Shown here: in pieces, positions 44,911-60,673 of the stretch
Layout: each line of letters begins with the position of its first letter
Numbering within the stretch: position 1 is the stretch's first letter
DNA from: Rhodanobacter sp. AS-Z3
GTDB taxonomy: Bacteria > Pseudomonadota > Gammaproteobacteria > Xanthomonadales > Rhodanobacteraceae
DNA length: 64,000 nt
Reading direction: 5' to 3'
NCBI RefSeq assembly: GCF_029224025.1
Contig: NZ_CP119392.1
Coordinates: 3,247,001 to 3,311,000, forward strand
The notes under the pieces: generated by a model
The model's database searches: none
What the model was told of the DNA's origin: nothing
What the model saw: the letters and a program-made list of their open reading frames with translations, nothing else
Position numbers and translations under genes: made by a program

Positions 44911-45354
44911 GATTATTCCCCTTGGCCGCACCTATCGATCCATTGACGGCAGACGCTGATGATTCAGTGCCTGCCCGCTGCGAACTCCCAAGCCCCCTCA
45001 CACTCAGACAATTGCTGCCTGCTGGCTTGTGTTACTTGCTCAAGGATACACCTTTGCCTCTGCAAAGAAAGCGGTCTGTCCGGCTGAAACCACCCGCAGC
45101 AACCGCCGGAAATAACCACGGCAAACGTCAGCAAAAACCTACGTCATGCTCCGGCGGATCAGCCGAACGGCCAGCAAAGCCCTGAGCTGCGCGCCTCCCC
45201 ACTGACATGGATGAACGTCAAAGCACGCAACCCTACATGACAGCTAATCGCTCAAGCTTGCTTCAACACAGGGTTTAAAATCGGATTATCGAAACCATGC
45301 ACCGAAATACCTGTCATGACTTAATCGAAAATATGCCGCCCACGCGAAAGTCAT
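44911..45354. other. 444-bp intergenic region upstream of tpsB
   Basis: No gene or RNA is recognised. AT content rises toward 45240-45354 (TTTAAAAT at 45273-45280), the probable regulatory stretch for tpsB on the minus strand. No matching -35/-10 pair with correct spacing could be picked out, and no hairpin terminator is evident for the upstream gene. Confidence 0.4.
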
Positions 45355-45711
45355 TCAATGTCGGATGAACGCCCAGTAGATCATCCCGGCAATCAAGGCG
45401 ACTGCCATCGCCATCAACAACAACGGCTTCCATGTCAGTGTCGGCCGCATCGACAGCAGCGACGCCAGCGCGTGGCCGGAGTCTGCCGGATCGTTCCCAC
45501 CCATGGCCACTCTATGCTGGCCACGCGAGGTGGTTATGGCAGAGGGTGGCACCAAAGCCTTGCGCGCGGTAACCACCCCGCCGCCGTCGGCCAGCGACTG
45601 CAACACCCGACGACGGCGTCCTCGATAGTCATCCCGCGAGATCCGGCCAAGCCGATGCGCGTCATCAAGCGCACGGAGATCACGATTGATGGCAGCTTCG
45701 CGTTCGGTCAT
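45355..45711 (-). CDS. Tail-anchored protein downstream of the T6SS kinase
   Basis: A 118-residue protein. Its N-terminal helices (INRDLRALDDAHRLGRISRDDYRGRRRRVLQSL) resemble a SHOCT-like hairpin, a polar linker follows, and a single hydrophobic helix lies at the C-terminus (PLLLMAMAVALIAGMIYWAF), so it should be tail-anchored in the inner membrane with the bulk in the cytoplasm. It overlaps the kinase stop by 4 bp and ends the T6SS operon. Function is unknown; a partner of the membrane-bound kinase is plausible. Confidence 0.8.
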   Translation of the reverse strand: MTEREAAINRDLRALDDAHRLGRISRDDYRGRRRRVLQSLADGGGVVTARKALVPPSAITTSRGQHRVAMGGNDPADSGHALASLLSMRPTLTWKPLLLMAMAVALIAGMIYWAFIRH

Positions 45712-48700
45712 TTCAGCTCCCTCAATACCCGGAAACCCACATCCCGTTGCGGCGAACCGCCATCCGACCGGCTGGAGTCGACACTACAGTCCGACCAATA
45801 GCTGTTGTAGCTGCCACCGCGCACCATCACGCTGCCGCCGCTGACCACCCACTCCCACACATTGCCAGTCATGTTGACCAGACCCCACGGGTTACGCGAG
45901 CGTCCCCGCGGCGATACCGGTGCACCACTGCCGTCCCCGCCACCCGCCGAAGGAAGAATGCAGTTGCTGTCCTCTGCCTGCTTCCAACTGCCGCCACCTT
46001 TCGCAGCGTGGAGCCATTCTGCATCGGTCGGCAGGCGATAGGTGAAGCCACCACTCAGGTCGCTGAGCCAGCGCGCATAGGCCCGCGCCTGATCGAGGCT
46101 GATATTGCTTATCGGCGCGGCGCCAAGATCTTTGTCGGCGACTGAAACGGCCGCGCACTTGCCGCTGCCGCGACAGAATTGATTGAACTCGTTGATCGAT
46201 ATCTCGGTTCGCGACATGGCGTAAGCCTTGCCGCCATTTACGCCAGGCACGACGACGAGCAAAGGTCCGCGCCCACCCTCGATGGCGTCCGAGCAGAACT
46301 TGCCCTTGCCGACAAGTTCGGGCCTGGCGCACGCGTCCGGACCACTTGCCGCCACATTGCCTGCCGTCGCCGGCTGGGCCACGGGCTTCGTACCGGGCTT
46401 GGTGGTCGCGGTGGGAGGCTTCCCCGGAACGGTGGTAGGAACCTGGGTTGTAGCCGGCTCCGGGACCGGAGCCACGACCGGCGTAGCCGGTGTCACGGGA
46501 GCGGTTACTGCCGCACGCTTGAGCTTGTCCAGCTGATCGGCAAGCGACTTCGCCGTCAACTGGCCGCGAGCCTTCATGCTGGCTTCGAGCTTGCCCAGCT
46601 CGGTCGAATCGTTGCGGCGAACGCTGTCGAGTTGCTTTTCCAGTTGCGCATACTGGGCGCTGCTTGCCGGCTGCTTGGTCGCCGCGATAATCGCGCTCGC
46701 CACGTCGTAGCGGGCCTTCGCCGTGCGCAAATCGGCATTGTTGCCAAGCGCACCAAGGCCCTGTCCAAGAATGTCCGAGGCACGCTGATAACGACCCTTC
46801 TGGAAGGCATCTTCGGCCTGGCCGAGATACGCGTCGGCCAGCAGCTTCGGAGCTTCGGTCCGCAGGAACGGATTGTCCGGCTGCAAGGCCTTGATACGCG
46901 CCAACGACTGGCTGGCTTTGCTGACGTCGCCGGCCGCCACCGCACTTTTCATCGACTCGATACGCGACTTGACTTCGGCGTCGGCGCTCTCCTGCGCAGC
47001 CGTTGCCTGCAGACGTGCCTGCAAGGTATCCAGTGCGGCCTTCTGCGCCAGCAGCTCGGCGGATTTCGGTACGTATTGGAGGCCAAAATCCACCGCAATC
47101 TTTGCCTGCGGCAGATGTTGCGGATCAGCCAGCCGCGCCGCCTCCCCCGCAATGGCGGCTCCCAACGCGTTGACCGCACGCTCGGTCTCTGGCGACTTGT
47201 CGGCATGCAGGGTCGCCATGGCGGTGGCCACATCACGCTGCCAATCCGGCGTCAGCGTGGGCTTCGCACCCAAACTGGCCAACGACGTTCTCGCATCAGC
47301 GAAGGCCTGCGCCTGTTGCTGCTGGGTCTTCTGCTGTGCCGCCGTTCGGGCGGTTGCAACGTCAGCCAGCAGCTTGCCAAAACCCGCTTCGGCCGGATCG
47401 AGCTGCTGGCCTGCCTGACCGACGCGCTCGGCGGCGTCCAGGTTGCCGTCTGCTATTTGTTCACGCGCCAGCTTGATCAAACCGGTGTTCGCTTGCGCGC
47501 GCACGGCGGCATAGTCCGCGGAATCTGCGCCGATCTGGCTGCGCGCGGTGCTCAGTGCACTCTTGACGTCCTGCAGCCAGACCACCGTCGCTTGCGGGCT
47601 GGCCAGCAAGTCGGTCACGCGGCTCTTGGCCAGGGCATTGCGCTGCGCTTCGCTGGCAGCCTTCTGTGCCAGCTGGTTCTGTTGTTCCAGCAGACTCTGA
47701 CGGGTGGACGACAGACTGGAGTCGCCAGGGAACAGGTTGATCCCGAAACCGGCAATGCTGATGGCACCTGCCAGATCGCCTGCCTTCTGCCGCTCGGTTG
47801 CCTGCCCAGCCAGAACTCCCTTCAAACGGGTTGCCTGTTCCGCCAGTCGCGGATCGTCGACCAGCAGGCTTGCCGCATCTCGATAGGATGCTGCCGCCTT
47901 GGCCCGCCAGTCGTCTGCATTGACCGGCTGATCCAGCAAGCCGGTGAGTGTCTGCAAGCCTTGTTCACGCTGCTGCTGCAACTGCTGCGCCTTTTGCTCC
48001 TGCAGCCGCTGCGCTGCCAGCGCCTTGCCGATTTCGTCCAGTTGCGCGCTGCGTTGCTTCAGTCTCGCCGAATCCGGGAACAGACTGATGGCAAGTTTGA
48101 GTTCCTTGGTCGCGTCGTCGACATGGCCGGCGTCGATCGACTTGCCGATGGCGGTGTCGTACTTCAGCTCCAGCTCGGTGTTCTTCAACAAGGTGCTGTT
48201 CGGATCGATCGCGCGGATATGGCTCAGCGTGGTGACCACGTTGTCTGGCTGATTCTCGAAAATGGCATCGGCGCTGATCTGGTCGCTCAGCTTGGTATCG
48301 AGCGAGTTGAGCAGGTCATTGCGCTGCTTTTCCACCTCAGTCCGCTTGATGTCCAGTGCCGGCGAATAAAGCTTGAGGTCATCACGCAGTTTGAATACCT
48401 GCTGGGTACCGGCGTAGTCGTATCGATTCTTGTCCGGGCTCCAGTAGGCATCGATACGGGCAAGCAGGTAACTCTGGATCAGTTCGCCCTGGTCGACGAC
48501 GGTGCGCTTGCGATCGTCGTCACTCAAGGTGTCGAGTGCCTTGAGCGCCTGCGCTTCATTGGCGTAGTGATCGGGGCGCGTCATGGTGAAACGCGCGATG
48601 ACTTCGGACAGATGATGGTTGTGCTGATAGGTCGTCCACGCCCATGCACCACCGGCCACCACGAGAATGGCGGGCACGCCGTACAACAGGTATGGCATCG

Positions 48701-50138
48701 CGCGTTCGCGCGCGCCTACGTCGCGCAAGCCGTCGATCAGCTCATTCGCACTCTTCAGGCGGTCGGCCTTGGTGAAGGCAACGCTCGCGCAGAGTGTCTT
48801 GTACTGATGTTTGGTCAGCCCCTTCACCGGTGGCGGTTTGCGGCCTTCCTTCATCGCCACTTCGGCGCTGGCCTTGTCGTACGGGTGCTTGCCGGTAAGC
48901 AGCTCGAAGGTCACGCAACCGAGCGCGTAGACATCGTCACTGGGAACCGGGTCTTCGCCCCGGATCATCTCCAGGCTGGCATAAGCGGGCGTCAGGGCAC
49001 CCAGCGTACCGGCGTCGAATACGGTTTCTTCGCCAACCGAATCACCCATGTGCTTGCCGGCACGGGCGATGCCGAAGTCGAACACTTTCGGCACACCCTC
49101 ACGGGTGACCATGACGTTGGCCGGCTTGAAGTCTGAATGCACCACACCGGCCGAATGCGCGCGAGTGAGTGCACGCGCCATGCCTTCAATCAAAGGCCGC
49201 GCCTGTGTCAGCGACATGCCGTTGAAGGCTTTCTCACGGATCAACTGCTTGAGATCGGAGCCATCGACGTACTCCATCGTCATGAAGACGATGGTGCGGT
49301 CCTTGTCAAAATCGTAGACGCGCACAATGTTGTCGTGCGCCAGTTGTTGCGAACGCCGCGACTCGCGCTGCAACGAGATCAGTGAATCGGGATGACGACG
49401 GAATTCGTCGTTAAGAATTTTCACGGCAACGTAGGGATCGCGATCGCGCGCCTCCACCTTGCGTTCGTCGCGCGCCTTGAACACCACGCCCATGCCGCCG
49501 CGGCCGATCTCCTTCTCCAGGTAGAAGCGCCCCTTGAGCAGCGAGCCAACCGTAACGAAGTCGGAGGCTTCGCCTTCGGAGATGTGATTCCAGCTGGAGC
49601 TGGTACCGGTCACCCCCTGATGGGTGCCCTGGGTGCCAGTCAAACCTGCCGTTTGACCTTCCATCGGCCCCGTCGGCGTGCCCGAAGCGGGCTTCACGAT
49701 GGTGGCCTCGTCGTCCACTGGTGGCTGCGCCTGACGAGAGGTGGGCTTGACCACGGTGACGTCGTCATCCACTGCGCCGGCTGGCGGCGCGACCGGGCGA
49801 GAAGCCGGCTGCACTATCGTGGCGTCATCATCGATCGCTGCGGGCGAAGTCGGCGGCGCAGCAGGCGTGGGACGCTGCGTGGCAGGCTTGATCTGGGTGG
49901 CCTCGTCATCGTGTAACTCACTACCGGAGGCCGCCTGCACAGCGGCCAACTTGGCCAGCAAGGCCTTGGCCACCATCGGCTCGAGCGTCCCCTGCTCGCG
50001 CTGCTGCGCCACCCACTCACATTCGGCCTGATGCTCTGCTTCGGGCAGCGTCCCGCGTGCCCCAAGGGCATCGAACAAGGCGGCGAGCTTGAGTTTGTCG
50101 GCCTGGTAGGCGGAAACCAGTTCGGCTATGGAATTCAT
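45708..50138 (-). CDS. ppkA: PpkA-like Ser/Thr protein kinase with SUMF1-like C-terminal domain
   Basis: A 1,476-residue membrane kinase of the T6SS threonine-phosphorylation pathway. Residues 77-150 carry four DD(E/D)(A/V)T motifs (Thr81, 107, 128, 146). The kinase domain spans about 200-470: GRGGMG (212-217), Lys240, catalytic loop HSDFKPAN (334-341; Ser replaces the usual Arg, a non-RD kinase) and DFG (354-356). One transmembrane helix (484-502) is followed by about 750 residues of coiled or TPR-like helices and a SUMF1/FGE-like domain from about 1265 (YRLPTDAEWLHAA, NPWGLVNMTGNVWEWV). PpkA kinases phosphorylate Fha or TssL to start secretion. It lies 16 bp after the phosphatase gene. Confidence 0.93.
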   Translation of the reverse strand: MNSIAELVSAYQADKLKLAALFDALGARGTLPEAEHQAECEWVAQQREQGTLEPMVAKALLAKLAAVQAASGSELHDDEATQIKPATQRPTPAAPPTSPAAIDDDATIVQPASRPVAPPAGAVDDDVTVVKPTSRQAQPPVDDEATIVKPASGTPTGPMEGQTAGLTGTQGTHQGVTGTSSSWNHISEGEASDFVTVGSLLKGRFYLEKEIGRGGMGVVFKARDERKVEARDRDPYVAVKILNDEFRRHPDSLISLQRESRRSQQLAHDNIVRVYDFDKDRTIVFMTMEYVDGSDLKQLIREKAFNGMSLTQARPLIEGMARALTRAHSAGVVHSDFKPANVMVTREGVPKVFDFGIARAGKHMGDSVGEETVFDAGTLGALTPAYASLEMIRGEDPVPSDDVYALGCVTFELLTGKHPYDKASAEVAMKEGRKPPPVKGLTKHQYKTLCASVAFTKADRLKSANELIDGLRDVGARERAMPYLLYGVPAILVVAGGAWAWTTYQHNHHLSEVIARFTMTRPDHYANEAQALKALDTLSDDDRKRTVVDQGELIQSYLLARIDAYWSPDKNRYDYAGTQQVFKLRDDLKLYSPALDIKRTEVEKQRNDLLNSLDTKLSDQISADAIFENQPDNVVTTLSHIRAIDPNSTLLKNTELELKYDTAIGKSIDAGHVDDATKELKLAISLFPDSARLKQRSAQLDEIGKALAAQRLQEQKAQQLQQQREQGLQTLTGLLDQPVNADDWRAKAAASYRDAASLLVDDPRLAEQATRLKGVLAGQATERQKAGDLAGAISIAGFGINLFPGDSSLSSTRQSLLEQQNQLAQKAASEAQRNALAKSRVTDLLASPQATVVWLQDVKSALSTARSQIGADSADYAAVRAQANTGLIKLAREQIADGNLDAAERVGQAGQQLDPAEAGFGKLLADVATARTAAQQKTQQQQAQAFADARTSLASLGAKPTLTPDWQRDVATAMATLHADKSPETERAVNALGAAIAGEAARLADPQHLPQAKIAVDFGLQYVPKSAELLAQKAALDTLQARLQATAAQESADAEVKSRIESMKSAVAAGDVSKASQSLARIKALQPDNPFLRTEAPKLLADAYLGQAEDAFQKGRYQRASDILGQGLGALGNNADLRTAKARYDVASAIIAATKQPASSAQYAQLEKQLDSVRRNDSTELGKLEASMKARGQLTAKSLADQLDKLKRAAVTAPVTPATPVVAPVPEPATTQVPTTVPGKPPTATTKPGTKPVAQPATAGNVAASGPDACARPELVGKGKFCSDAIEGGRGPLLVVVPGVNGGKAYAMSRTEISINEFNQFCRGSGKCAAVSVADKDLGAAPISNISLDQARAYARWLSDLSGGFTYRLPTDAEWLHAAKGGGSWKQAEDSNCILPSAGGGDGSGAPVSPRGRSRNPWGLVNMTGNVWEWVVSGGSVMVRGGSYNSYWSDCSVDSSRSDGGSPQRDVGFRVLRELK

Positions 50139-50154
50139 GAGTGGGGACTTTTCT

Positions 50155-50874
50155 TCATTCTTGGATGCGTACGACTACGGCAGAGATGTTGTCCCGACCG
50201 CGCCGGCTGAGTGCGAGGTCGAACAAGCTGGCAACGAGATCCTGCGGCTGCGGGTTGCGACGACATTCGTCGTCAAGTTCGGCATCAGACATTTCCTTGT
50301 TGATGCCATCAGAGCAAAGCACGAAAGCCATTCCCGGCCGGTTACCAGCGACCACCCAGTCAACGAACAACTGCTCTTCCGCGCCGACTGCGCGCGTGAG
50401 TACACCGGAGCCGGCCTGCGCCGGCTCGGCAGGTGCGCCAAAATGGGTGATGTCGTCATCACCGCCATGCACATGGTCGCGGGTGATCTGGCGCAACTGC
50501 CCGTCTTCGAAGCAATACACGCGGCTGTCGCCAACCCAGCCGCAGAGCATCAGGTCATTGTCCTGCACCAGCACCACCACGGTGGAACCAATCAGGTCGA
50601 CGCCACGCGTTACGGCGGTCTGCAGCAGGTCGGTATTGATCTGCGAGAGCGTGTCTTCGATCAATTCGATGAAGTCCAGTGCGCTACCGGTGCGTGGCAA
50701 GGCACCGAGTCGCTCGACAATCATCGTGCTGGCGTAGTCGCCGGCCGAATGACCACCCAATCCGTCGGCGACGACCCACAGGCCAACGTCGTCGCGCACA
50801 AGGATGGCGTCCTCGTTGTGCTTGCGAACCTTGCCGGTCACCGTGCGTCCTGCTGAAACATAGCGAGTCATCAT
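50155..50874 (-). CDS. pppA: PP2C-family Ser/Thr phosphatase (PppA-like)
   Basis: A 239-residue PP2C phosphatase that reverses kinase action in T6SS control. All metal-site motifs are intact: NED (20-22), DGLGGH (37-42), GDSR (115-118), CSDG (187-190) and DN (228-229). The start ATG overlaps the tagF stop (ATGA); a second ATG follows directly. It sits between tagF and the kinase, matching the classic PppA/PpkA pairing. By analogy with Pseudomonas and Agrobacterium it switches secretion off. Confidence 0.94.
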   Translation of the reverse strand: MMTRYVSAGRTVTGKVRKHNEDAILVRDDVGLWVVADGLGGHSAGDYASTMIVERLGALPRTGSALDFIELIEDTLSQINTDLLQTAVTRGVDLIGSTVVVLVQDNDLMLCGWVGDSRVYCFEDGQLRQITRDHVHGGDDDITHFGAPAEPAQAGSGVLTRAVGAEEQLFVDWVVAGNRPGMAFVLCSDGINKEMSDAELDDECRRNPQPQDLVASLFDLALSRRGRDNISAVVVRIQE

Positions 50875-52514
50875 GCGCCCATCTCGATGATCGTCAGCGG
50901 CCAGCGGGCCGCATCCGTGCCAAGGCCCGCCGCTTGGGCCAGCCGCTGTCGTGCTTCGTCAATCGAGGAGAGCGCCAGACTGCTGGCCAGAACACCTGCT
51001 GGCAGCTGCAACAAGGATGAATTTGCCAGCAGCAGCAAACGGTCGCCAGCAGCCGCCTCGCATTGAACCTCTCCACACGTCGGTTGCTCGGCGGCGCCCA
51101 ACCCGGGTGCCACCGGTGCAGCACTGCTGAATAACAAGTCGTCAAACTCGTCGCTGACGGCGCCACCAGGCAAGCGGGCCGGCGCACTGCCCTGCGCGAA
51201 CAACGGCTGCACTCGCCCCTGCCGGTAGTGCCACGCGCTGGCGCTGCCAATGCGCAACAAACTGGCCTTGCCGCCTTCCACATGCGCGGCAATCACCGCG
51301 CAGTCTTCCAGCACCGGATCGATCAAGTCTTCACTGGCCTGACGCAACGGCGGATTCAGCATCAACAGCTGGCTGCACAATGACTGCATACCGCCGTCCA
51401 GGTCGTCGCAAGGCAGCGCCCGGACGATGGCGGAAACCGCGTCGACGGCGCGCTGACGGGCGCTCGGCAACCCGACTTCAGCAGCCAGCACGGTCAGTCC
51501 GCACTCGGGGCGTGACTCCACCGCAGCCTTCGGCATCACTCCCATGGTCACGCCAACAGCCACGGTTGTCGTGACCGCAGCCGGAACAGTGGTGAGGGGT
51601 GGCGCCACAACTGCGGGAGCCCCCAGCAAATCCGATAGCAGGCCAGGATCGTCAGGCAACCAGGCTGGCGCCGGAGATGGCGACGGAGCAGGCCAGACGG
51701 GCGCTGTTGGTACCGCGGCCACAAGATCGTCCAGCAGATTGCTGGCATGCTCCGACAGCGATCGCTGAGGAGAGCCCGCTTGTTCAAGCGGCACTGATGA
51801 GCGCCACGGTTTGACGCCGCTGCCGGCATCGAGAAATGCGGCGTAGGCGGCCGGAGCAGGCAGCCCGTTCGTGGCCAATGCACATGCGGGAACCCGCTCG
51901 CTTCCCGCAGTCCACCACAGACACCAGGTGCCAGACGTGCTGGCCAGACGACCCCACAACTCGGCCAGAAAGGCTTCCGCCGATGGAACTGCCGGCAGAG
52001 GAAGGCGCCAGTGCGTCGCCGCCCGCCAGTCGACTTCAGGCAGCGCGGTCGATGCGGCCGAAAACCGTCTGGCCAGCGGATCGCCCAGGTCAGCCACCTG
52101 ACCATCAAACGCCTCGACCGTGATACGGGCGTCCGCCTGCGCCTCGGCATGGACGTTTTCGGCGGCCTTCAGCCAGCCGACCGCCTCCGTCAAAGCCCGC
52201 GACGTGGCAGCCGGGTCACTTGCCAACGGTGCGGCAATAACCATCGGAAAACAGCGTCCGACTCGGTCAACACCAGGCCCCATGATGCCAAGCCATGCCG
52301 AGTCACCGCAGACGCCTGCGCCAAGCAGGAACCGCCAGACCGGACTGGCGTGGTAAGCGTCGCGCCAACCTGTTCCCAGTTCGTTGCGACTCTCCGCCAC
52401 CGCCGTCTCGAAGTGCCCGTCCCACACGTCCACAAAACTCGACGGCAACCGACGCTGCACGAAATCCCCTGCGCAAGGCAGCTTTCCGAAAAAGCCCGCG
52501 ACGGGATTCGGCAT
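50871..52514 (-). CDS. tagF: TagF fused to a degenerate PP2C-like domain
   Basis: A 547-residue protein. Residues 1 to about 220 form the TagF domain (GFFGKLPCAGDFVQRRLP, RFLLGAGVCG, GPGVDRVGRCFPMVIAAP), a post-translational T6SS repressor. A Pro/Ala-rich linker (about 265-335) leads to a PP2C-like fold (about 339-547), alignable to the phosphatase downstream. There GLTVLAAEVGLP replaces the GLWVVADGLGGH metal motif, GSAS (423-426) replaces GDSR, and ANSS (497-500) replaces CSDG, so it should be inactive. Agrobacterium has an active TagF-PppA fusion. It overlaps pppA by 4 bp and lies 3 bp after tssM. Confidence 0.9.
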   Translation of the reverse strand: MPNPVAGFFGKLPCAGDFVQRRLPSSFVDVWDGHFETAVAESRNELGTGWRDAYHASPVWRFLLGAGVCGDSAWLGIMGPGVDRVGRCFPMVIAAPLASDPAATSRALTEAVGWLKAAENVHAEAQADARITVEAFDGQVADLGDPLARRFSAASTALPEVDWRAATHWRLPLPAVPSAEAFLAELWGRLASTSGTWCLWWTAGSERVPACALATNGLPAPAAYAAFLDAGSGVKPWRSSVPLEQAGSPQRSLSEHASNLLDDLVAAVPTAPVWPAPSPSPAPAWLPDDPGLLSDLLGAPAVVAPPLTTVPAAVTTTVAVGVTMGVMPKAAVESRPECGLTVLAAEVGLPSARQRAVDAVSAIVRALPCDDLDGGMQSLCSQLLMLNPPLRQASEDLIDPVLEDCAVIAAHVEGGKASLLRIGSASAWHYRQGRVQPLFAQGSAPARLPGGAVSDEFDDLLFSSAAPVAPGLGAAEQPTCGEVQCEAAAGDRLLLLANSSLLQLPAGVLASSLALSSIDEARQRLAQAAGLGTDAARWPLTIIEMGA

Positions 52515-52517
52515 CGC

Positions 52518-55500
52518 CTAGCCTCCACACCGGAAGCTGGATAGCGCATTGCTGAGGAAGGGATTCTTCAGGTTGTTGGCCTGAATGGTCACCTTGGCCA
52601 CATGTCCACCGAAGTTGAAGCTGGCCACGAAACGCAGGTCCGATTGCTTCTGCAGATTCGCTGCCTGCAGCGCGCGGAAGAACGCCCAGTCGCCGTGATA
52701 ATCAAACGTGGTCAGCAAGTTGCCTGCCGTGTCATAGGCCGAGATGGATACATGGCCCGGCGCGGGGCCCGGCCATTTCATGCTGGCCGTTGTTGCACCA
52801 CCGGACTGGTATTCGTATTTCTGGCCATCAACCTCGATCACCAGCTTGCCAATGCCGGGGTCCAGCACAGGGGCGAGAAGGGTGAAGTCCACCTCCGGCA
52901 TGTTGCCGCTGCGGAAAAACATCTGCTTGATTCGATCGGCACCCTGCATCTGCGCCAGCATGCCGGCCGAACCACTGACCGCACCGGGGCCGGTCTTCCA
53001 CTGCCAGTTGCGCCCGCTGGCATCAATCAGCTTGCCCACGGTCTGGTTGTAGAAGCCGTCGAAGCGACCACCGTAACCAAACATTTCGCCGAAGTTCTGC
53101 AGCGGAATGTCGTTGTTGCTTGAGGGTGAAAACGGATAGCGACCACGCGTGTAGTCAGCGCAATCCTTGGCCACCATCTGCTGGTACTGGTCATCGAGCG
53201 CGCCCTTGGTACCGCTGGCTACCAACGCCTGACTCTTCCCGGTCAGCGCGGCAAACCAGCCAGAGGCCGGTGCAGGCAGCTGACCGGCAGCCTGCTGCGC
53301 CATCAGCATCTGCGGATTGGGCTGGCCCGCCGCCGAACTGAAGTCACCCATGGTCAGCAAGGTCTTGCTGAGATCGTCGAGTACCTTGAGGGTCTGGTCG
53401 ATCGGTGCCGCACCCGGCGCACCTTCGCTCAACTTGTTGAGCTGATCGAAGTGATCACTGATGACCTGTCCCGGCTTGCTGGCGGCTGCATCGGCCGCCG
53501 GGGCTCCCGCCCCGGCACCCGCTTGTGCCAACGCGCGCGCCAGCGCTGACTGAGTCGCCTTCTTCTGAGCCAGGTTCTTGACCACGTCCTCGGCCTTGTC
53601 CTTGGCATCGGTCGGTGGCGCACGCATCAGGTCATGCGTGTTGTCACTCACCACTTTCAGCAACAGCTTCATCGGCGAATTGGTGCCGGCCAACTTGGCT
53701 GCAATGGTGCTGGCATCCTGGATATTGTTGATTGGTTGCAATTCCAGGTCGGTCAGGATGCCGTCCCAGGCTTTGATGTAATCCTGCTCGTAAAGTGCGA
53801 GTACCTGCTGGGCAAGACGGGCCTTCTGCAAGGAGTCGATCTTGGTTGCACCGAACACCCAATCGTCGGCAGCGAACTGGGCAACGGCCTGATCAATGCC
53901 CTTGTCGACTTCTTCCTTGAAGACCGGCTGCGTGAACAGGGCCGGCAGCGGCTCCGATAGCGGCGCACCACTCTTGCGTCGGTAGACGTTGCCCAGCAGA
54001 CCCAATTCCTTGTCCAGCCGCAGCGGCGGAAACGCGCCACTGTCCGCGGTCAGCTTGATGTTGCCGTAGATCAGCGTTGCCAGGTCCGCGGTGCGCAAAG
54101 TGTTCCGTGCCTGCTCGACCAGACTCGCATCCAGACTCAGCGCGCGCAGCCGGCCTTCATGACCGACCAAGGCGTCAAAATGCTTGGTCAGTGCCTTCTG
54201 CAGCACCGGATCGGAAGGAAACAGTCGACGCCATTCGATATTGGCCAAGGCCACGATCTGGTCGTGATCCAGATGCTCGGGCTCGCCCAGCATCAGGTAA
54301 CCCTTGAGGTAGTAATAAAGCATTTGCGGATCGGCGGCATTCGCCGACAAGCCAGCCCGGAACTGGGAAGCCACGCCGGGCAGCAACAAGGCATTCAGCT
54401 CGCGATAGTAAGCGTCACGCACTTCGTCGCCGACCGCATTGCCCTGATACAAGCCGAAACGCATGGACAGGGGCACGTCGCCTTTGTGCTGCTCCGCAAC
54501 GTCCACGGCGCTGGACAAGGACTCCAGCCGCTGCAGCACCATCGCAAAATACGCCTGCTGGTTCGGCGCCAACGACACGTCGTTTTGTGCCGGATACTTT
54601 TGCAGTACCGACTGCACCTGACTGAGGTAGTTCGCGTTGCGGCGATAGCTGCTGGCCAGTCCGAACACCAACAAGGCGCACACCAGCAGAACACCAATGT
54701 AGATGGCCGCCTGCAGCAAGGTCTTCTGGCGTTCCAGCTTGGGGTTGGTGCCGGCAAAACCGGATTCCTTGAACAACACGTCGCGCAGCAGGCGTTCGAC
54801 GAAGAACGTGCGACTCTGCGCACCCGGTACATGCAGGCGAGACGCATCGAGGCCAAAGGTTCGCGCGACCGCGCCCATCATGCGGTCAATCGGCGTACCT
54901 TCCTGCGTGCCGGAGGTGAAGTAGGCTCCGCGCAACAACAGTGGCGCATCGTATTGATGGCCGGTAAACACGCCTTCAACAAATTGCCGGGTGATCCCTC
55001 GCAAGGCACTGAGCTGTTGCGGGAAGGACAGAATGGCCGCGCGCCGTGTGCGGTCACGCTCGCCATGCAGGCGATCGAGAATGCGGGTATTGAGACGATC
55101 CAGCAGCAGGTTGAACTCTTCGAGAAACTGCTTGGCGGCGCTGCCGTCCATGGTCTTGTCGACCGGGAACGACATGCCCCAGACCTGACTGCGCAACTCC
55201 GGATTGAGGTCGTCGAAGAACTCGGTGAAACCGGCAACCAGATCGCACTTGGTGAATACCAGATAGGCCGGAACACCGATGCGCAGATGCTTGGCTAATT
55301 CGTCCAGTCGCTGGCGCACAGCCTGGATATGTTGCTGGCGTCCCGCCTCATCCAGCGTCAGCAGATCGGACAGGCTCATGGCGACGATCACGCCATTGAT
55401 CGGACGCCGCTTGCGATATTTGCGCAGCAGTTCGAGGAATTCCGTCCACGCCGACGCGTCGGCGCTGCGATCGGAGTCCTGGGTGGTGTAACGACCAGCG

Positions 55501-56051
55501 GTATCCAGGAACACCGCTTCGTCAGTAAACCACCAGTCGCAATTGCGCGTGCCACCGACGCCGCGGATGGCTTCCTTGCCGAACTTGTTCGACAACGGGA
55601 AATTAAGGCCGGAATTCTGCAGCAAGGTGCTCTTGCCCGAACCGGGTGGCCCGATTACCACATACCAGGGCAGCGCATAGAGGTTGGTGCCACCACTGCG
55701 ATTCTTGCGCAGGGTTTCCACCGCTTCCTGGAAGCGGCCCTGCAACTGCGCACGCTCGTTGGCGGAGCGGTCGTCGCGCTCGCCACCGGACTGGGATGAG
55801 CCCTGATCACTCAGGTCACTGGCCATCTGCTTGGCCTTGCCGCGCACACGCATCTGCTGCACTTGCAGCCAGACCGCCCAGATCACCACGATCACGATGA
55901 TCACCAGCAGGCGTACCACGGGACTGGACAACGGCTGTGACTCACCAAAGCCGAGATAGGGACCGCCAAACCAGATCAGCAACGACAGCAGCAGCAAGCC
56001 GACGAGGGTCATGAACAGACGGGATTTGAACAACGCAAGAAGCTTGCCCAC
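52518..56051 (-). CDS. tssM: Type VI secretion membrane protein TssM (IcmF)
   Basis: TssM, with TssJ and TssL, forms the envelope-spanning complex of the type VI apparatus. The protein is 1,177 residues, standard length. Helices lie at about 11-29, 45-62 and near residue 447 (AIYIGVLLVCALLVFGLAS). An intact Walker A motif GPPGSGKS (134-141) and VFLDTAGRY form a cytoplasmic NTPase domain between the second and third helices. A long periplasmic part ends in a beta-domain at the C-terminus (the TssJ-binding end). It lies 5 bp after tssL and 3 bp before tagF. Confidence 0.96.
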   Translation of the reverse strand: MGKLLALFKSRLFMTLVGLLLLSLLIWFGGPYLGFGESQPLSSPVVRLLVIIVIVVIWAVWLQVQQMRVRGKAKQMASDLSDQGSSQSGGERDDRSANERAQLQGRFQEAVETLRKNRSGGTNLYALPWYVVIGPPGSGKSTLLQNSGLNFPLSNKFGKEAIRGVGGTRNCDWWFTDEAVFLDTAGRYTTQDSDRSADASAWTEFLELLRKYRKRRPINGVIVAMSLSDLLTLDEAGRQQHIQAVRQRLDELAKHLRIGVPAYLVFTKCDLVAGFTEFFDDLNPELRSQVWGMSFPVDKTMDGSAAKQFLEEFNLLLDRLNTRILDRLHGERDRTRRAAILSFPQQLSALRGITRQFVEGVFTGHQYDAPLLLRGAYFTSGTQEGTPIDRMMGAVARTFGLDASRLHVPGAQSRTFFVERLLRDVLFKESGFAGTNPKLERQKTLLQAAIYIGVLLVCALLVFGLASSYRRNANYLSQVQSVLQKYPAQNDVSLAPNQQAYFAMVLQRLESLSSAVDVAEQHKGDVPLSMRFGLYQGNAVGDEVRDAYYRELNALLLPGVASQFRAGLSANAADPQMLYYYLKGYLMLGEPEHLDHDQIVALANIEWRRLFPSDPVLQKALTKHFDALVGHEGRLRALSLDASLVEQARNTLRTADLATLIYGNIKLTADSGAFPPLRLDKELGLLGNVYRRKSGAPLSEPLPALFTQPVFKEEVDKGIDQAVAQFAADDWVFGATKIDSLQKARLAQQVLALYEQDYIKAWDGILTDLELQPINNIQDASTIAAKLAGTNSPMKLLLKVVSDNTHDLMRAPPTDAKDKAEDVVKNLAQKKATQSALARALAQAGAGAGAPAADAAASKPGQVISDHFDQLNKLSEGAPGAAPIDQTLKVLDDLSKTLLTMGDFSSAAGQPNPQMLMAQQAAGQLPAPASGWFAALTGKSQALVASGTKGALDDQYQQMVAKDCADYTRGRYPFSPSSNNDIPLQNFGEMFGYGGRFDGFYNQTVGKLIDASGRNWQWKTGPGAVSGSAGMLAQMQGADRIKQMFFRSGNMPEVDFTLLAPVLDPGIGKLVIEVDGQKYEYQSGGATTASMKWPGPAPGHVSISAYDTAGNLLTTFDYHGDWAFFRALQAANLQKQSDLRFVASFNFGGHVAKVTIQANNLKNPFLSNALSSFRCGG

Positions 56052-56056
56052 GGTGT

Positions 56057-57415
56057 TCAGTCCTCCGGACTATAAAGAATTTCAACGCGACGATTGCGCG
56101 CGCGGTTGGCCGGCAGATCCGGCGGCAAGGCAATCGGTTGTGACGACCCTGCACCGCTGGACTCCAGCCGACCGGCGTTGTCGATGCCCTGACTGAGGAT
56201 CTGCAAAACCGACTTCGCACGCTCGGCAGACAACGCGTAATTGTCCTTGAAGCGCAAGGAATGCACCGGCTGATCATCGGTGTGGCCGACCACCACAACC
56301 CGACCCGGCACCTGATTCAGTGCCGCCGTGATCGCATGCAACATCGGGATCTGCTTGTCAGTCACCTCGGTTCCACCCGAGGCGAACATCGCCGTCGCAT
56401 TGAGCCGAACCAGCGCCGATCCATCCGGTTTTTCATCCACCGTCAAAGCGCCCGCCTGTTCCTCCGGTGCCAGCAATTGCTTCAGGCTCTTGCGCGCAAC
56501 CGGCGGTTGCGCCTGCCGACGCAGGGCATCATCCGGCGGCACCGCCGTTTTCAGGCCGATCTGCACGACCTGCGCGCTGACCGGTGACGACAACTCGTTC
56601 AAGCGCGTGAAAAAGTACAGAAAAGCACCCAGCAGAAGACAAGCCGCGGCGGCCACGATGACCCACAACGGCACGTGCCGAACCAGTGGATTGCGCCTAT
56701 CCTCGATGCCCCTCCAGTGCGGCGCCAGCTCTTCGACAGCCGGTGGTCGCTGACTCTTGAGGCGTCGATACAACTCTTCCTGGATGTCGGCCAACTTGGC
56801 GCGACCATCGGCCTCGATCTGGTAGCGTCCGCCAAAGCCCAGCGCCAGACAGATGTACATCAACTCGATCAGGTCGATGTGTTTGGAAAAGTCGGCACAC
56901 AACCGATCGAGGATGATGAAGAATTTTTCACCACCGTAAGACTCACCGTGGAAGACCACCAGCAGCGTCTTTGCCGCCCAACCACTTTGCTGTCCCCAGG
57001 GCGTATTCATCACCGACTCGTCCAGCGTTGCACACAGCACGTAACGCGCGGCGGTGATCGTCTGGGCTGCGATACCGGCGGCCTGCGCGTTGCTCTCGAA
57101 CTGACGCACCTGGGCAATCACCTGCTCACGCAGGTGCGCGGCATCGGGCTGTGACACGCTGTTGCGCAGTTGCACCGCCAGCAACAACAGCGGACTGGCT
57201 GCCTGGACCAGCGCATTCAGGCCACCACCGAGAAAGTCACTGATGGCCGCCGGCGGCACCGCTTCGGCACGCGCCGCAGAGCTGCGGGCAGCCACCACCG
57301 GCGTCGTTGGTTGCGCAGCCGGCGGAGGTGCTGCCGGAGCAGGCGCCGCTCCGCGCGGGCGAACAACGGTCGCATCACGCATCGCGTCGTCGTCAAAGGG
57401 ACCGTTGCTGTTCAT
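56057..57415 (-). CDS. tssL: TssL (DotU/IcmH) with C-terminal OmpA peptidoglycan-binding domain
   Basis: A 452-residue inner-membrane component. The N-terminal tail carries DATVVRP (residues 14-20, Thr16). The DotU domain covers about 55-230, a helix lies at 247-270, and an OmpA/MotB-like domain at about 345-450 (GHTDDQPVHSLRFKDNYALSAERAKSVL, then NRRVEILY) anchors it to peptidoglycan. The Thr16 motif resembles the kinase linker motifs, and in Agrobacterium PpkA phosphorylates TssL near the N-terminus to recruit Fha. The start at 57415 (MNSNGPFDDD) is preferred to one 57 bases upstream, since upstream residues are atypical. It lies 4 bp after tssK. Confidence 0.93.
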   Translation of the reverse strand: MNSNGPFDDDAMRDATVVRPRGAAPAPAAPPPAAQPTTPVVAARSSAARAEAVPPAAISDFLGGGLNALVQAASPLLLLAVQLRNSVSQPDAAHLREQVIAQVRQFESNAQAAGIAAQTITAARYVLCATLDESVMNTPWGQQSGWAAKTLLVVFHGESYGGEKFFIILDRLCADFSKHIDLIELMYICLALGFGGRYQIEADGRAKLADIQEELYRRLKSQRPPAVEELAPHWRGIEDRRNPLVRHVPLWVIVAAAACLLLGAFLYFFTRLNELSSPVSAQVVQIGLKTAVPPDDALRRQAQPPVARKSLKQLLAPEEQAGALTVDEKPDGSALVRLNATAMFASGGTEVTDKQIPMLHAITAALNQVPGRVVVVGHTDDQPVHSLRFKDNYALSAERAKSVLQILSQGIDNAGRLESSGAGSSQPIALPPDLPANRARNRRVEILYSPED

Positions 57416-57419
57416 GCGC

Positions 57420-58757
57420 TCAACCTCTGATCGCCCACAGTTGCAAGTCGAGGCCGGCGAACTCGCCACCAAAGTGGAAAGCTATCCCGCCTGACGTCTT
57501 CAGATCGCGCCACATGGCCGAATTCTTGTCGAATTCGAAATACAGGTAGCCGGAGTTATAGGGAATCTGCCGCGGAGCCACCGGCATGGGCGCCACCGGG
57601 ATACCGGGCAGCTGCAGATTCACCAGGTCGCGAATTTTCTCGACCGGACCAATCTTGGACTGTGCCGGCAACTGGCGACGCAGGTCTTCGGACTTCATAT
57701 CGGCCTTGGCCGCGAGCACGAAGGCCGAGCTGTCGATCAAGCTGAGATCGGGAACCACGGCCACCCACACACCGAACTTCCGCTGTTGCAGCGGAATCGG
57801 AATGGCCGTCTGTTCCATCACCGCGCTCAGGCTGCTGCGCAAGGCAACAATCAATGGCTCGAAACTCGCATACAGCGCCTCATGCCGATACGGCGAAAAT
57901 GCCGGTGGGCGCTTGCCTGGCGCAGTGAAGGTACAGAATTCGCCCGCCATCTCGGCCAGCACCCGGTAGAGATCCTCCGGATGCAGAATGGGTGCCGCAG
58001 CCAGGTGGGCCACCAGCGGCTGGTAGCGATTGACTACCTGCAACAGCAGAAAGTCGGCAATTTCCGCGGCACCACCACGATCGGTTACCGCAACACGGCT
58101 GGCCAACGCTTCGCCACGCTGGTGCAGCAAGCCCAGCAACTCAGTGAGAAAGGTGGTCAACTTGGCCGCGGCATGGCAGCTCAACACCGTCGGCATGAAC
58201 GCGTCTTCGAGAATCACCCGGCGATCGGAACGGCACTCCACGATGCGCGCTACCGGAATCTGCGCCAGACCTTCCAGCGGCTGCGACTGCGGTAGCAGCC
58301 GGCTATTGAGGCCGCCTACTTCCAGCGCAGTCATGCCGTCAACGCTGCCCGACGCGTCGCGAACTTCGGTTTCCCGCACGCGGAAGCGAAACAAGGTTTC
58401 AGCAGACGCGTCGGGTCGACCAGTGTCCGGCTGTGCTGGCGAACGCAACGGCAGGGTGAGAAAAACCGTCTGATCGCGCCAGTTTGCATCCACCTCCAGC
58501 GCGAGCGGAAGCGGGTCGTCCGAAGGCATGCAGAACGGCGTTCCGTCAGGGAATACACCGCGGGCACGCTTGATCCCGAGTTTGCCGATGGCCAGCAGGT
58601 CGGTTTCCAGCTCCAGTTCGGAGAAACCCCAGGTGTAAGGCCGCAGATTGCCGGCGCGCAGTTCGACAAAGCGCTCGAGATAGCGTTCCTGCTGCTGCAG
58701 ATGCTGGGGCCGGAGGAAAAGACCCTCGCTCCAGACGACCTTGTTGATATCCGTCAT
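57420..58757 (-). CDS. tssK: Type VI baseplate protein TssK
   Basis: TssK links the baseplate to the membrane complex. The protein is 445 residues with the family start (MTDINKVVWSEGLFLRPQHLQQQERYLE compressed to VWSEGLFLRPQH), then SVDGMTALEVGGLNSRLLPQ and a C-terminal FEFDKNSAMWRDL segment. ATG at 58757 begins at the conserved N-terminus; the longer upstream frame is Arg/Ser-rich and non-homologous. A 125-bp gap separates it from fha. No tssJ-like lipoprotein gene lies here, although tssJ commonly precedes tssK. Confidence 0.94.
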   Translation of the reverse strand: MTDINKVVWSEGLFLRPQHLQQQERYLERFVELRAGNLRPYTWGFSELELETDLLAIGKLGIKRARGVFPDGTPFCMPSDDPLPLALEVDANWRDQTVFLTLPLRSPAQPDTGRPDASAETLFRFRVRETEVRDASGSVDGMTALEVGGLNSRLLPQSQPLEGLAQIPVARIVECRSDRRVILEDAFMPTVLSCHAAAKLTTFLTELLGLLHQRGEALASRVAVTDRGGAAEIADFLLLQVVNRYQPLVAHLAAAPILHPEDLYRVLAEMAGEFCTFTAPGKRPPAFSPYRHEALYASFEPLIVALRSSLSAVMEQTAIPIPLQQRKFGVWVAVVPDLSLIDSSAFVLAAKADMKSEDLRRQLPAQSKIGPVEKIRDLVNLQLPGIPVAPMPVAPRQIPYNSGYLYFEFDKNSAMWRDLKTSGGIAFHFGGEFAGLDLQLWAIRG

Positions 58758-58882
58758 GCGTCGCACCTGCCCCTGTGAGTATCCCCGACTGCGTTGCCGG
58801 GCCTTCCGATGCCGGCCTTGAACTGCCGACACGTTGCTGGACCGTCTTTCCGACTTGCTATCTGCCATGCCCCCCGACACGG

Positions 58883-60235
58883 CTAGTGATGCGACTTTTG
58901 CATTCTCCGCGCCGATTTCAGGCGTGACAACTGCTCTTCATAGGCTCGTGCAAACTCGTCACCGAACAGGCGTCTGAAGCACTCGTCCGGATCACGCGAC
59001 AAACCGTCGAAATTGTCGCGATACTTGTCCCAGTATTTGCCCTTGCCGGCAAACGCTGAGCGCTTTGCGCCGTCAGTTTCCTGCTCGAAACGATCCGGAT
59101 TGAAGTGCACCAGCAAGGACTCGAACGCGGCACGTACGCCCGCCAGCATGGCCATCTGGTGGCAGCGGATATCATCAAACGCGTCTTCGAAAGCCAGCGT
59201 GCCGGACATGAAGGCATTATTCGGCGGGGCCATGATCTTGGCCAGCGCCTCTTCCGGATTGGGTGCAAATTTCAGCGGATTGTTCTCGGACCGCTGGATA
59301 ATCGTGACCGGCAGACGAAAGGTGTTCTTGATCTCGGCCCGGGCACGCAAAACGTCCATGACGCCATCGACAACGACCCTGAACATCTGATCGACATCGG
59401 CCGGCAACCCCGCAGCTGCCGCAGCTGGCGCATAGGCCGCCACCGGCGGCGCGTAAGCCGGCGGCGCGGCCACCGGTGGTGCCATCACCGGCGCCGGGGA
59501 CGAAGCGGCGGGCGACGAGAAGTCACCCATGGTCAGATCCCAGTTTTCGGGCAGCGCATTGGCGCTTGACTGCCGCTGCTCGGTCGTCATCGGTGGATGG
59601 AAAAAATCTTCCGTACTGGAGGTGTGGTTCCAGCCCGAGCTGGCATTGCCCGTCGTGGCACCCGAGAGCAGCCCGGCCGTATTGTCTGTCGGCCCGAGAA
59701 AACTGAGTGGATCAAGTTCGCCACTCAGACTCGGCGCCAGGCCGCCGGGAATCAGGTCGGCGTCGAGGGGAATGCCGCCACTCGCCGGTGGATACGCGGG
59801 CGCACGCGGCGCCAGGTCGAGCAAACCGAAATCCAGCGGGTCGAAAGCTGTCGCGGGAATCGCTTGCGCTTGTGCCGGTGCTGAGCCCGGCAAATCAGGC
59901 AACCCGGTCGCACTGGCCGCGTCTTGCAGACTCACCTCCACCTCGAAGGTGTCGATCAGCAGCCGATCGCCCTCTTTCAACGCGGAAGGGCTGCCCTTGA
60001 CCAACGGTGCATCGTTGAGAAGCATGCCGTTGGTGCTGCGATCCTCGATGAAGTACATGCCATTGAGGTAGCGAATCATCGCGTGGACACGTGACACGCC
60101 CGATGCACTTAGCACCCAGTCGCAATCCTCGGAACGACCGATGCTGCCGCCAGCTCCTTCAAACACCCTGCTGCTGCGACTGCCGAACTGGGCAGCCTGA
60201 CGGCCAGTAACTGCAAGGATCAGGCTCTGCGACAT
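58883..60235 (-). CDS. FHA-domain T6SS protein (Fha/TagH)
   Basis: A 450-residue cytoplasmic scaffold. The FHA domain (about 1-105) has the phosphothreonine-binding residues readable as SIGRSEDCDW, SRVH and STNG. A long Ala/Pro-rich linker follows, in which residues 199-206 read SSGWNHTS. The C-terminal TagH/VasL-like region (about 290-450: DVLRARAEIKNTFRLPVTII, NPLKFAPNPEEALAKIM, ESLLVHFNPDRFEQE) is the conserved Fha C-terminal module. It should bind phosphorylated Thr on TssL or on the kinase. ATG 60235 begins the FHA strand; it heads the operon toward tssK. Confidence 0.93.
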   Translation of the reverse strand: MSQSLILAVTGRQAAQFGSRSSRVFEGAGGSIGRSEDCDWVLSASGVSRVHAMIRYLNGMYFIEDRSTNGMLLNDAPLVKGSPSALKEGDRLLIDTFEVEVSLQDAASATGLPDLPGSAPAQAQAIPATAFDPLDFGLLDLAPRAPAYPPASGGIPLDADLIPGGLAPSLSGELDPLSFLGPTDNTAGLLSGATTGNASSGWNHTSSTEDFFHPPMTTEQRQSSANALPENWDLTMGDFSSPAASSPAPVMAPPVAAPPAYAPPVAAYAPAAAAAGLPADVDQMFRVVVDGVMDVLRARAEIKNTFRLPVTIIQRSENNPLKFAPNPEEALAKIMAPPNNAFMSGTLAFEDAFDDIRCHQMAMLAGVRAAFESLLVHFNPDRFEQETDGAKRSAFAGKGKYWDKYRDNFDGLSRDPDECFRRLFGDEFARAYEEQLSRLKSARRMQKSHH

Positions 60236-60673
60236 CGACACGCGTATTTCCCCAACAACTGTCAGACCAGCATGACCATGACGAACGAAGCATCTCGAGC
60301 CATGCAAAGAATCAGGTTTCAAGCTTTGCGAAAGATCGGCATTCGAAGACCGCAACGCCGTGAGCTGAATTCACGATCAGACTGACCGCAGAGACTTCCA
60401 CATCCACAACCGAGCATCCTGCTCAACTTCGTACCATCCCTGCCCGACTCCCTTGGCTATTCGGCTGGCGAAAAAGTCGCCGGCGAGCCACGGCCATGAG
60501 GCGTAGGCAGTTGGAGCTGCCAGATGACCGGCAAACTACAACGAATTTGCCGCCCGTCATCGTATCGCCCAACGCAAGGACGAGCAAGGTCAGGACACAT
60601 CCAAATCACGCCAACCAGTCCCCTCAACCGACACTGCTGCCGGCAAGGCGCCAGGCCAAGACTCAGAGAAAAC
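60236..60673. other. 438-bp intergenic region upstream of fha
   Basis: No gene is recognised. On the minus strand TTGCTC-N17-TACGAT near 60557-60585 is a weak sigma-70-like match and a 5-bp stem hairpin lies at about 60467-60481. No sigma-54 site of the TGGCAC-N5-TTGC type is visible. This is the likely promoter region of the fha-to-kinase operon. Confidence 0.4.

Follow-up and report, generated by a model that had tools for sequence, protein, structure and literature searches.

The stretch of DNA analysed here (64,000 nucleotides, referred to below as the window) lies in the complete 4.09 Mb genome of Rhodanobacter sp. AS-Z3 and carries, on its minus strand, a type VI secretion system (T6SS) cluster encoding VgrG, a DUF6931 protein, Fha, TssK, TssL, TssM, TagF, a PP2C phosphatase and a Ser/Thr kinase. 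Our subject is a short motif around a threonine that occurs four times in the linker of the kinase and once in the N-terminal tail of TssL, two otherwise unrelated proteins of this one cluster, and that probably serves as a phosphothreonine site. The features concerned are as follows.

45708..50138, minus strand: T6SS Ser/Thr kinase (PpkA-like), 1476 residues (Pfam PF00069, 3.8e-38; PF03781, 1.6e-19)
49884..49904, minus strand: kinase linker motif 1, EATQIKP, Thr81
49806..49826, minus strand: kinase linker motif 2, DATIVQP, Thr107
49743..49763, minus strand: kinase linker motif 3, DVTVVKP, Thr128
49689..49709, minus strand: kinase linker motif 4, EATIVKP, Thr146
56057..57415, minus strand: TssL (DotU/IcmH with a C-terminal OmpA domain), start MNSNGPF at 57415 (PF09850, 1.8e-72; PF00691, 1e-9)
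57356..57376, minus strand: TssL motif, DATVVRP, Thr16
58883..60235, minus strand: Fha (TagH), N-terminal FHA domain and T6SS_FHA_C (PF00498, 3.9e-17; PF20232, 1.3e-50; profiles run on 58886-60256)
60134-60136, 60092-60094, 60083-60085 and 60029-60031, minus strand: Fha pocket residues R34, S48, H51 and N69, respectively, numbered from the start MSQ

The kinase consists of an N-terminal region and Pro-rich linker holding the motif array (residues ~1-200), a kinase domain (207-429/461), a hydrophobic segment (483-501) and an FGE-sulfatase-like domain at the C-terminus (1304-1473). The catalytic HxDxKPxN, the DFG and the membrane segment were all located, as in a Hanks-type kinase, within the T6SS cluster. 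In TssL the DotU domain covers residues 69-268, so that Thr16 lies upstream of it in the N-terminal tail. This tail is taken to be cytoplasmic, as in the TssL of Agrobacterium tumefaciens, because the most hydrophobic 19-residue window begins only at residue 248. The phosphothreonine pocket of Fha is intact, with R34, S48 and N69 all present. Among the best matches, the nearest named relatives of both TssL and the kinase are mostly Rhodanobacter. Translation confirms the five motifs and the residue numbers given for them in the original prediction, whose interval, 49689-57376, extends from the fourth linker motif as far as the site in TssL. Taken literally, the consensus that it proposed, DxT(V/I)VxP, covers three sites of the five; to include EATIVKP and EATQIKP the first position must be D or E, and EATQIKP also requires Q-I after the threonine.

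The pattern [DE][AV]T[IVQ][IV][KQR]P has five matches in the window (six frames, stop-to-stop open reading frames (ORFs) of at least 60 residues, 84,425 residues in total), and these are exactly the four kinase sites and the TssL site. A DNA superset of the pattern has 11 matches on both strands of the whole genome, compared with 29 for the reversed pattern. Five are the kinase and TssL sites and the other six translate as DVTDVSP, DATAVKP, EATEIEP, DATTMQP, EVTYVRP and EVTKVNP, so that by this whole-genome search the strict pattern is absent outside the five T6SS sites. The original prediction had allowed that the motif might be equally common in unrelated proteins; in its strict form it is not, within this genome. 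The looser form D/E-x-T-[IVM]-[IVM]-x-P gives 22 genome matches, four of them T6SS sites, against 17 in controls, and is thus not rare in itself. The remaining 18, inspected by eye rather than by systematic annotation, include several short or competing frames and several folded enzymes. One of them (G000:C1:2043453, L014) has EDVTVVAP together with DDAPTVV in an acidic, disordered-looking stretch of a protein which, by eye, we take to be FimV-like; this may be another protein, separate from the T6SS, that is targeted by an FHA domain or a kinase.

The array is retained in related kinases. In the 11 kinase loci that could be parsed, out of 12 from this genome and its relatives, there are four copies in eight (that of the window included), three in two and two in one, with spacers that vary in both length and sequence. 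We then took the best 120 of 3116 kinase homologues, 117 of them with a usable N-terminal region, and the best 120 of 2438 TssL homologues. The 117 kinase linkers contain 381 copies of [DE]xTx[VILM]xP, where shuffled linkers average 3.95, with no more than 11 in any of 200 trials. The number of copies per linker is 0 in one, 1 in two, 2 in 21, 3 in 37, 4 in 54 and 5 in two. TssL has a single motif within its first 70 residues in 117/120, the three exceptions being short at the N-terminus (350-415 residues). With Thr and the Pro at +4 fixed by the search pattern, the commonest residue of the kinase-linker motif reaches a frequency of 0.90 at +2, 0.58-0.63 at -2, -1 and +3, and 0.54-0.59 at -3, +5 and +6; in the surroundings it is 0.17-0.48 from -15 to -4 and 0.18-0.49 from +7 to +15. 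Judged from this conservation, the motif is under selection. Synonymous codons say little on the matter, since in 24 orthologous kinases the motif threonines are encoded by ACC (58) and ACG (21) and by no others. One might put the motifs down to coincidence, or to duplication within low-complexity tails rich in Pro and Ala, and deny them any function; the linkers are indeed Pro-rich, and copies 26, 21 and 18 residues apart may stem from duplication. The excess over shuffled linkers, the genome-wide exclusiveness of the strict pattern and the persistence of the motifs while the spacers vary refute this explanation, which we regard as having practically no chance of being right.

The threonine itself is almost invariant. 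When its position was left free, with the neighbours held to the residues seen and Pro at +4, the kinase linkers gave 380 Thr, one Pro and no Ser in 381 copies, though Ser and Thr total 1537 and 1662 in these linkers. TssL gave Thr in 117/117 and no Ser, and the wide survey described below gave 30 Thr, one each of Met, Ala and Leu, and no Ser. FHA domains are specific for phosphothreonine (Lin 2014, PMC3953482). A motif restricted to Thr therefore points to an FHA domain as reader, since Ser should be acceptable too if a Ser/Thr kinase were all that recognised the site. One look-alike with Ser in place of the motif Thr, HASIIPMPG, was seen outside these patterns, in a second, weaker or divergent DotU ORF (L129_18, L129:14489-15808), at a locus in which no FHA was found within 10 kb.

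The relation between the TssL motif and the state of the Fha pocket was followed in a survey across the phylum. DotU (PF09850) is present in 64/249 genomes with 97 matches, of which 80 were used with ~10 kb on each side (the window's own match and the 16 weakest were left out), and with a wider span for 20 loci. TssL N-termini with the motif occur in many families, for example DRTQFMPRPGG, DKTVIL, DRTIIRP, ESTVFDP, DATIIKPRPG and NLPTVVEL. Lin et al. (2014) described the TssL site as conserved in Agrobacterium and Rhizobium and not in distant TssLs, and suggested that it may have a broader role (PMC3953482); this suggestion is supported by its presence in so many families. Loci were classed by the alignment columns of R34 and S48 in the numbering of the window's Fha. 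The TssL motif is found in 44/56 loci that keep both columns and in 0/12 in which either is lost (Fisher 4e-7, a descriptive value, as are the other p-values of the survey, since the classes and the relaxed motif expression were fixed after the data had been seen), and in 0/12 loci with no FHA found within 10 kb. These columns replaced earlier pocket classes based on regular expressions (43/51, 1/17 and 0/12; 12/15 against 1/9 in family-by-class units, p 0.002), in which an Fha was counted as degenerate even when only the His of SxxH had changed. The first grouping, with FHA presence called by profile and the motif restricted to D/E, had given 43/62 loci with FHA and 3/18 without. Families f22, f28 and f56 hold both states, the motif occurring where the phosphate contacts are kept and missing where they are not; for f28 this counts EETVAF, an unscored variant of the motif. 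The Arg position of Fha is Ser or Ala at L111, L113, L114, L118, L120, L122-L125 and L131, mostly along with a change at the Ser position; these loci gave no scored TssL motif and, within 10 kb, no kinase.

The survey counts are automatic scores. By eye, a variant motif or an artefact of the start codon is seen at eight of the 12 loci that keep both contacts and have no scored motif (L115 DRTITIP, L121 ARTIMMP, L135 ESTVVKP, L138 DRTIIRP, L139 SLPTIVEL, L159 GKTVIRP, L168 GRTRIRP and L170 EETVAF), leaving L096, L102, L119 and L126 with no TssL motif even on inspection. Equal leniency towards the loci with lost contacts yields at most one doubtful case, L123 KSTQF. Some TssL tails have two or three copies, as at L167 (G251, family f38) and at Paraburkholderia and Burkholderia loci such as L193-L198 and L204, with DKTRL, EPTLIRP and DATVFRP, or DATVIRP and DATRIMP, as examples; multivalency can sit on TssL as well in some loci.

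One alternative is an unmodified linear motif, binding Fha or another T6SS protein without phosphorylation and keeping its Thr for structure. Fha acts as a core T6SS component without phosphorylation too in some species (PMC5995506), and seven f56 loci with ERTRI have no kinase within 10 kb, although each of these seven genomes has one at its other tssL locus; the motif-bearing loci L093, L141 and L146 also lack a kinase, even in the wider span. The exclusion of Ser and the association with the phosphate contacts speak against such a motif, as does the dependence on phosphate of the binding described in A. tumefaciens (PMC3953482), and we consider this explanation highly improbable.

The kinases themselves were compared at 34 named related loci (Rhodanobacter, Dyella, Frateuria, Luteibacter, Paraburkholderia, Burkholderia and metagenome-assembled genomes), where they were located by profile. 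At least two loose motifs lie outside the kinase domain in 25 of the 32 kinase ORFs, two of which are pieces at L175, and in one of 18 other Hanks kinases used as controls. The kinase of G205 (L105) has none by the loose motif and, by eye, DVATVVKV, EATCVMP and DQATVVKP in its linker. At L184 and L185 (Dyella lutea and D. ginsengisoli) there are two kinase ORFs per T6SS locus, with three and four loose copies; the shorter ORF (393-396 residues) stops inside the kinase domain and was probably cut by the end of the locus.

A similar threonine context is found within the kinase domain, in the activation segment:

49008..49031, minus strand: activation-segment sequence EETVFDAG, residues 370-377, motif-like context of Thr372

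With the activation segment taken at a fixed length (the Rhodanobacter type ends in SLE and not APE), T[VILQF][VILF] occurs there in 26/31 kinases of the named loci, in 20/45 survey T6SS kinases and in 1/18 other Hanks kinases. Five f17 loci have DDRTQF in the activation segment of the kinase and DRTQF in the TssL tail of the same locus. From their sequences, the TssL tail, the kinase linker and the activation loop look like variations on one site. These observations could also reflect a substrate or docking consensus of the kinase only. In that case the linker copies would tune the kinase as tethered pseudosubstrates or as competing substrates, and phosphorylated TssL alone would bind Fha. 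The arrays do sit in the kinase itself, and the shared Thr context (EETVF/EQTVF here, DRTQF in the f17 loci) suggests a shared recognition by the kinase. Recognition by a Ser/Thr kinase alone, however, would not be expected to keep Ser out, and the TssL motif is missing from all 12 loci in which FHA has lost a phosphate contact; yet 11 of these 12 (all but L106) are without a kinase in the span searched, so that the effect of losing the kinase cannot be told apart from that of losing the pocket. A consensus of the kinase only seems to us quite unlikely.

We turn to the reading that we consider probable: [DE]-[AV]-T-[VIQ]-[VI]-[KQR]-P would be a short linear phosphothreonine site that the kinase writes on TssL and on its own linker, and the FHA domain of Fha would read both. 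The proposal of a shared phosphothreonine/FHA recognition motif in the original prediction is well supported by comparison of sequences, through the retention of Thr over Ser and the absence of the motif where the FHA contact is lost. The Agrobacterium precedent that it invoked is likewise real. In A. tumefaciens, mass spectrometry shows PpkA-dependent phosphorylation of TssL at Thr14, in the peptide STDNPSSWQDLPpTVVEITEESR, and Fha binds DLPpTVVEI with a Kd (dissociation constant) of 1.58 mM and a 20-mer with 0.54 mM; neither the unphosphorylated peptide nor the R30A/S46A FHA mutant gives binding (PMC3953482). As in that system, the Thr of Rhodanobacter TssL lies in the N-terminal, cytoplasmic tail of a protein with DotU and OmpA domains, has a T-V-V core, and is encoded in a cluster with PpkA, PP2C, TagF and an Fha with the R/S pocket. 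With kinase, PP2C, Fha and TagF all in the cluster, the full PpkA/PppA/Fha/TagF threonine-phosphorylation set is present. In A. tumefaciens TagF and PppA are, by contrast, one fused protein, and the portion of PMC3953482 drawn on here does not mention a kinase-linker array. The same route as that proposed for Rhodanobacter TssL is described in Vibrio alginolyticus, where PpkA2 phosphorylates TssL, which recruits Fha (PMC10482370, PMC5995506). Two further FHA-domain matches elsewhere in the genome (G000:C1:3563409 and 2347937; L002 and L003) are possible competing readers.

Docking of an FHA protein on a kinase also has parallels, GarA and PknB being one mycobacterial pair. In another, PknQ-MupFHA, the FHA protein docks on the kinase's own phosphorylated Ser170 and Thr174 (PMC4238996); what is shared with our proposal is FHA docking on a kinase, and what differs is that the docking site is the activation loop and not a repeated linker motif. 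PpkA is reported to autophosphorylate (PMC6082577, PMC10482370). In Acidovorax citrulli, kinase-dead PpkA binds Fha less, and Fha foci require the kinase activity of PpkA and not Thr640 of Fha (PMC12607579), as would be predicted if Fha docks on autophosphorylated PpkA. PpkA also forms condensates there, which take up Fha and the cytoplasmic domain of TssL (PMC12607579).

Several points weigh against the proposed phosphothreonine site. The PpkA substrate described in Pseudomonas aeruginosa, Serratia and A. citrulli is Fha itself (PMC6082577, PMC5995506, PMC12607579), with phosphosites in the P. aeruginosa, S. marcescens and A. citrulli pathway at Thr362, Thr438 and Thr640. That pathway has PpkA, PppA, Fha and TagF in common with the present cluster; even so, the five f17 loci of the survey have DRTQF in TssL as well as in the activation segment of the kinase. 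The affinity of A. tumefaciens Fha for its peptides is weak (Kd 0.5-2.2 mM; PMC3953482), and the likeness of the two TssL sites is limited to T-V-V, Thr16 having D at -2 and R-P at +3/+4 and Thr14 having D at -3 and E-I at +3/+4. In the survey, besides the post hoc choice of pocket classes and relaxed motif, the association is weaker if the Asn position is also required (36/43 against 8/25, p 4e-5), and common descent confounds the motif with the Fha class and with the T6SS lineage. Single loci break the pattern: the f19 loci L096, L119 and L126 keep R and S (with His and Asn changed) and a kinase with no TssL motif, L102 (G036) lacks a TssL motif although its Fha is canonical and its kinase linker holds two motifs, and L093, L141 and L146, already mentioned, carry the motif with no kinase in the wider span. 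Finally, among the 46 T6SS kinases of the survey, loose motifs beyond the kinase domain number 0-2 in 45 and five in L097, so that the array is not general and belongs chiefly to this lineage and its near relatives.

We infer the phosphorylation of all five sites, the autophosphorylation of the linker, the binding of Fha to it and the handover to TssL, the step of TssL phosphorylation and Fha docking resting by analogy on Thr14 of A. tumefaciens. In the sequence of events that we propose, a signal would activate the kinase, which would autophosphorylate its motif-like activation-segment threonine together with the linker, the activation loop first and then the four linker threonines. Once phosphorylated, the linker, cytoplasmic and Pro-rich, would keep a number of Fha molecules close to the kinase, and the kinase would phosphorylate Thr16 of TssL. 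Fha would then pass from the linker to TssL carrying phosphorylated Thr16 and so be recruited to the TssL-TssM membrane complex, leading to baseplate assembly, and the PP2C phosphatase encoded next to the kinase would return the sites to their starting state.

The array might work in the opposite sense, as a phospho-sink that competes with phosphorylated TssL for limited Fha and sets a threshold or delay rather than promoting assembly. The sequence evidence for this is identical to that for the phosphothreonine site read on both proteins. Four linker copies face one in TssL, and induction of PpkA lowers T6SS killing in A. citrulli (PMC12607579); in the same species, however, PpkA promotes Fha foci (PMC12607579), and a sink strikes us as unlikely. 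A more ambitious version of the promoting role, in which the linker is a multivalent, phosphorylation-gated scaffold with 3-5 near-identical phosphothreonine sites per kinase, is offered tentatively, as a possibility that we hold with some doubt. Such a scaffold would capture several Fha molecules and seed an Fha-rich assembly next to the membrane complex, possibly a condensate like that of A. citrulli PpkA and Fha, the single TssL site setting the place of delivery. Across Pseudomonadota, the phospho-controlled T6SSs would then be marked out by a single phosphothreonine code that evolves along with the FHA pocket: a TssL that bears the motif would be part of a phospho-gated machine, and machines with a decayed pocket would have dropped the code.

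The open-access literature searched yielded no account of a motif array in the linker of the kinase, nor of a TssL motif of general occurrence. Two things are new here, the array in the kinase and the occurrence of the TssL site outside Rhizobiaceae, and they make the system a variant of the T6SS threonine-phosphorylation pathway already known. The distribution of the motif between loci with intact and with lost contacts suggests that the contact between phosphorylated TssL and Fha is a general, perhaps ancestral, step, and the array suggests a way for a kinase to concentrate its reader protein at the membrane. The motif is also offered as a sequence rule for predicting which T6SSs are phospho-gated.

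The other genes of the cluster referred to above are the following.

50155..50874, minus strand: PP2C phosphatase (PppA-like), beside the kinase (PF13672, 1.1e-14)
50871..52514, minus strand: TagF (PF09867, 7e-38, residues 7-141 only)
52518..56051, minus strand: TssM (IcmF) (PF14331, 9.9e-93; PF06761, 4.4e-71; PF06744, 2.1e-20)
57420..58880, minus strand: TssK (VasE) ORF (PF05936, 3e-155; translation of 57423-58763)

TagF has a long C-terminal part without any Pfam match. A degenerate copy of the adjacent PP2C was considered for this half and rejected, there being no BLAST similarity. Adjoining the cluster is an ORF of 3809 residues with filamentous-haemagglutinin-like repeats (window positions 31744-43173), and beside it lies an ORF resembling an outer-membrane transporter (43177-44931), both named by eye.

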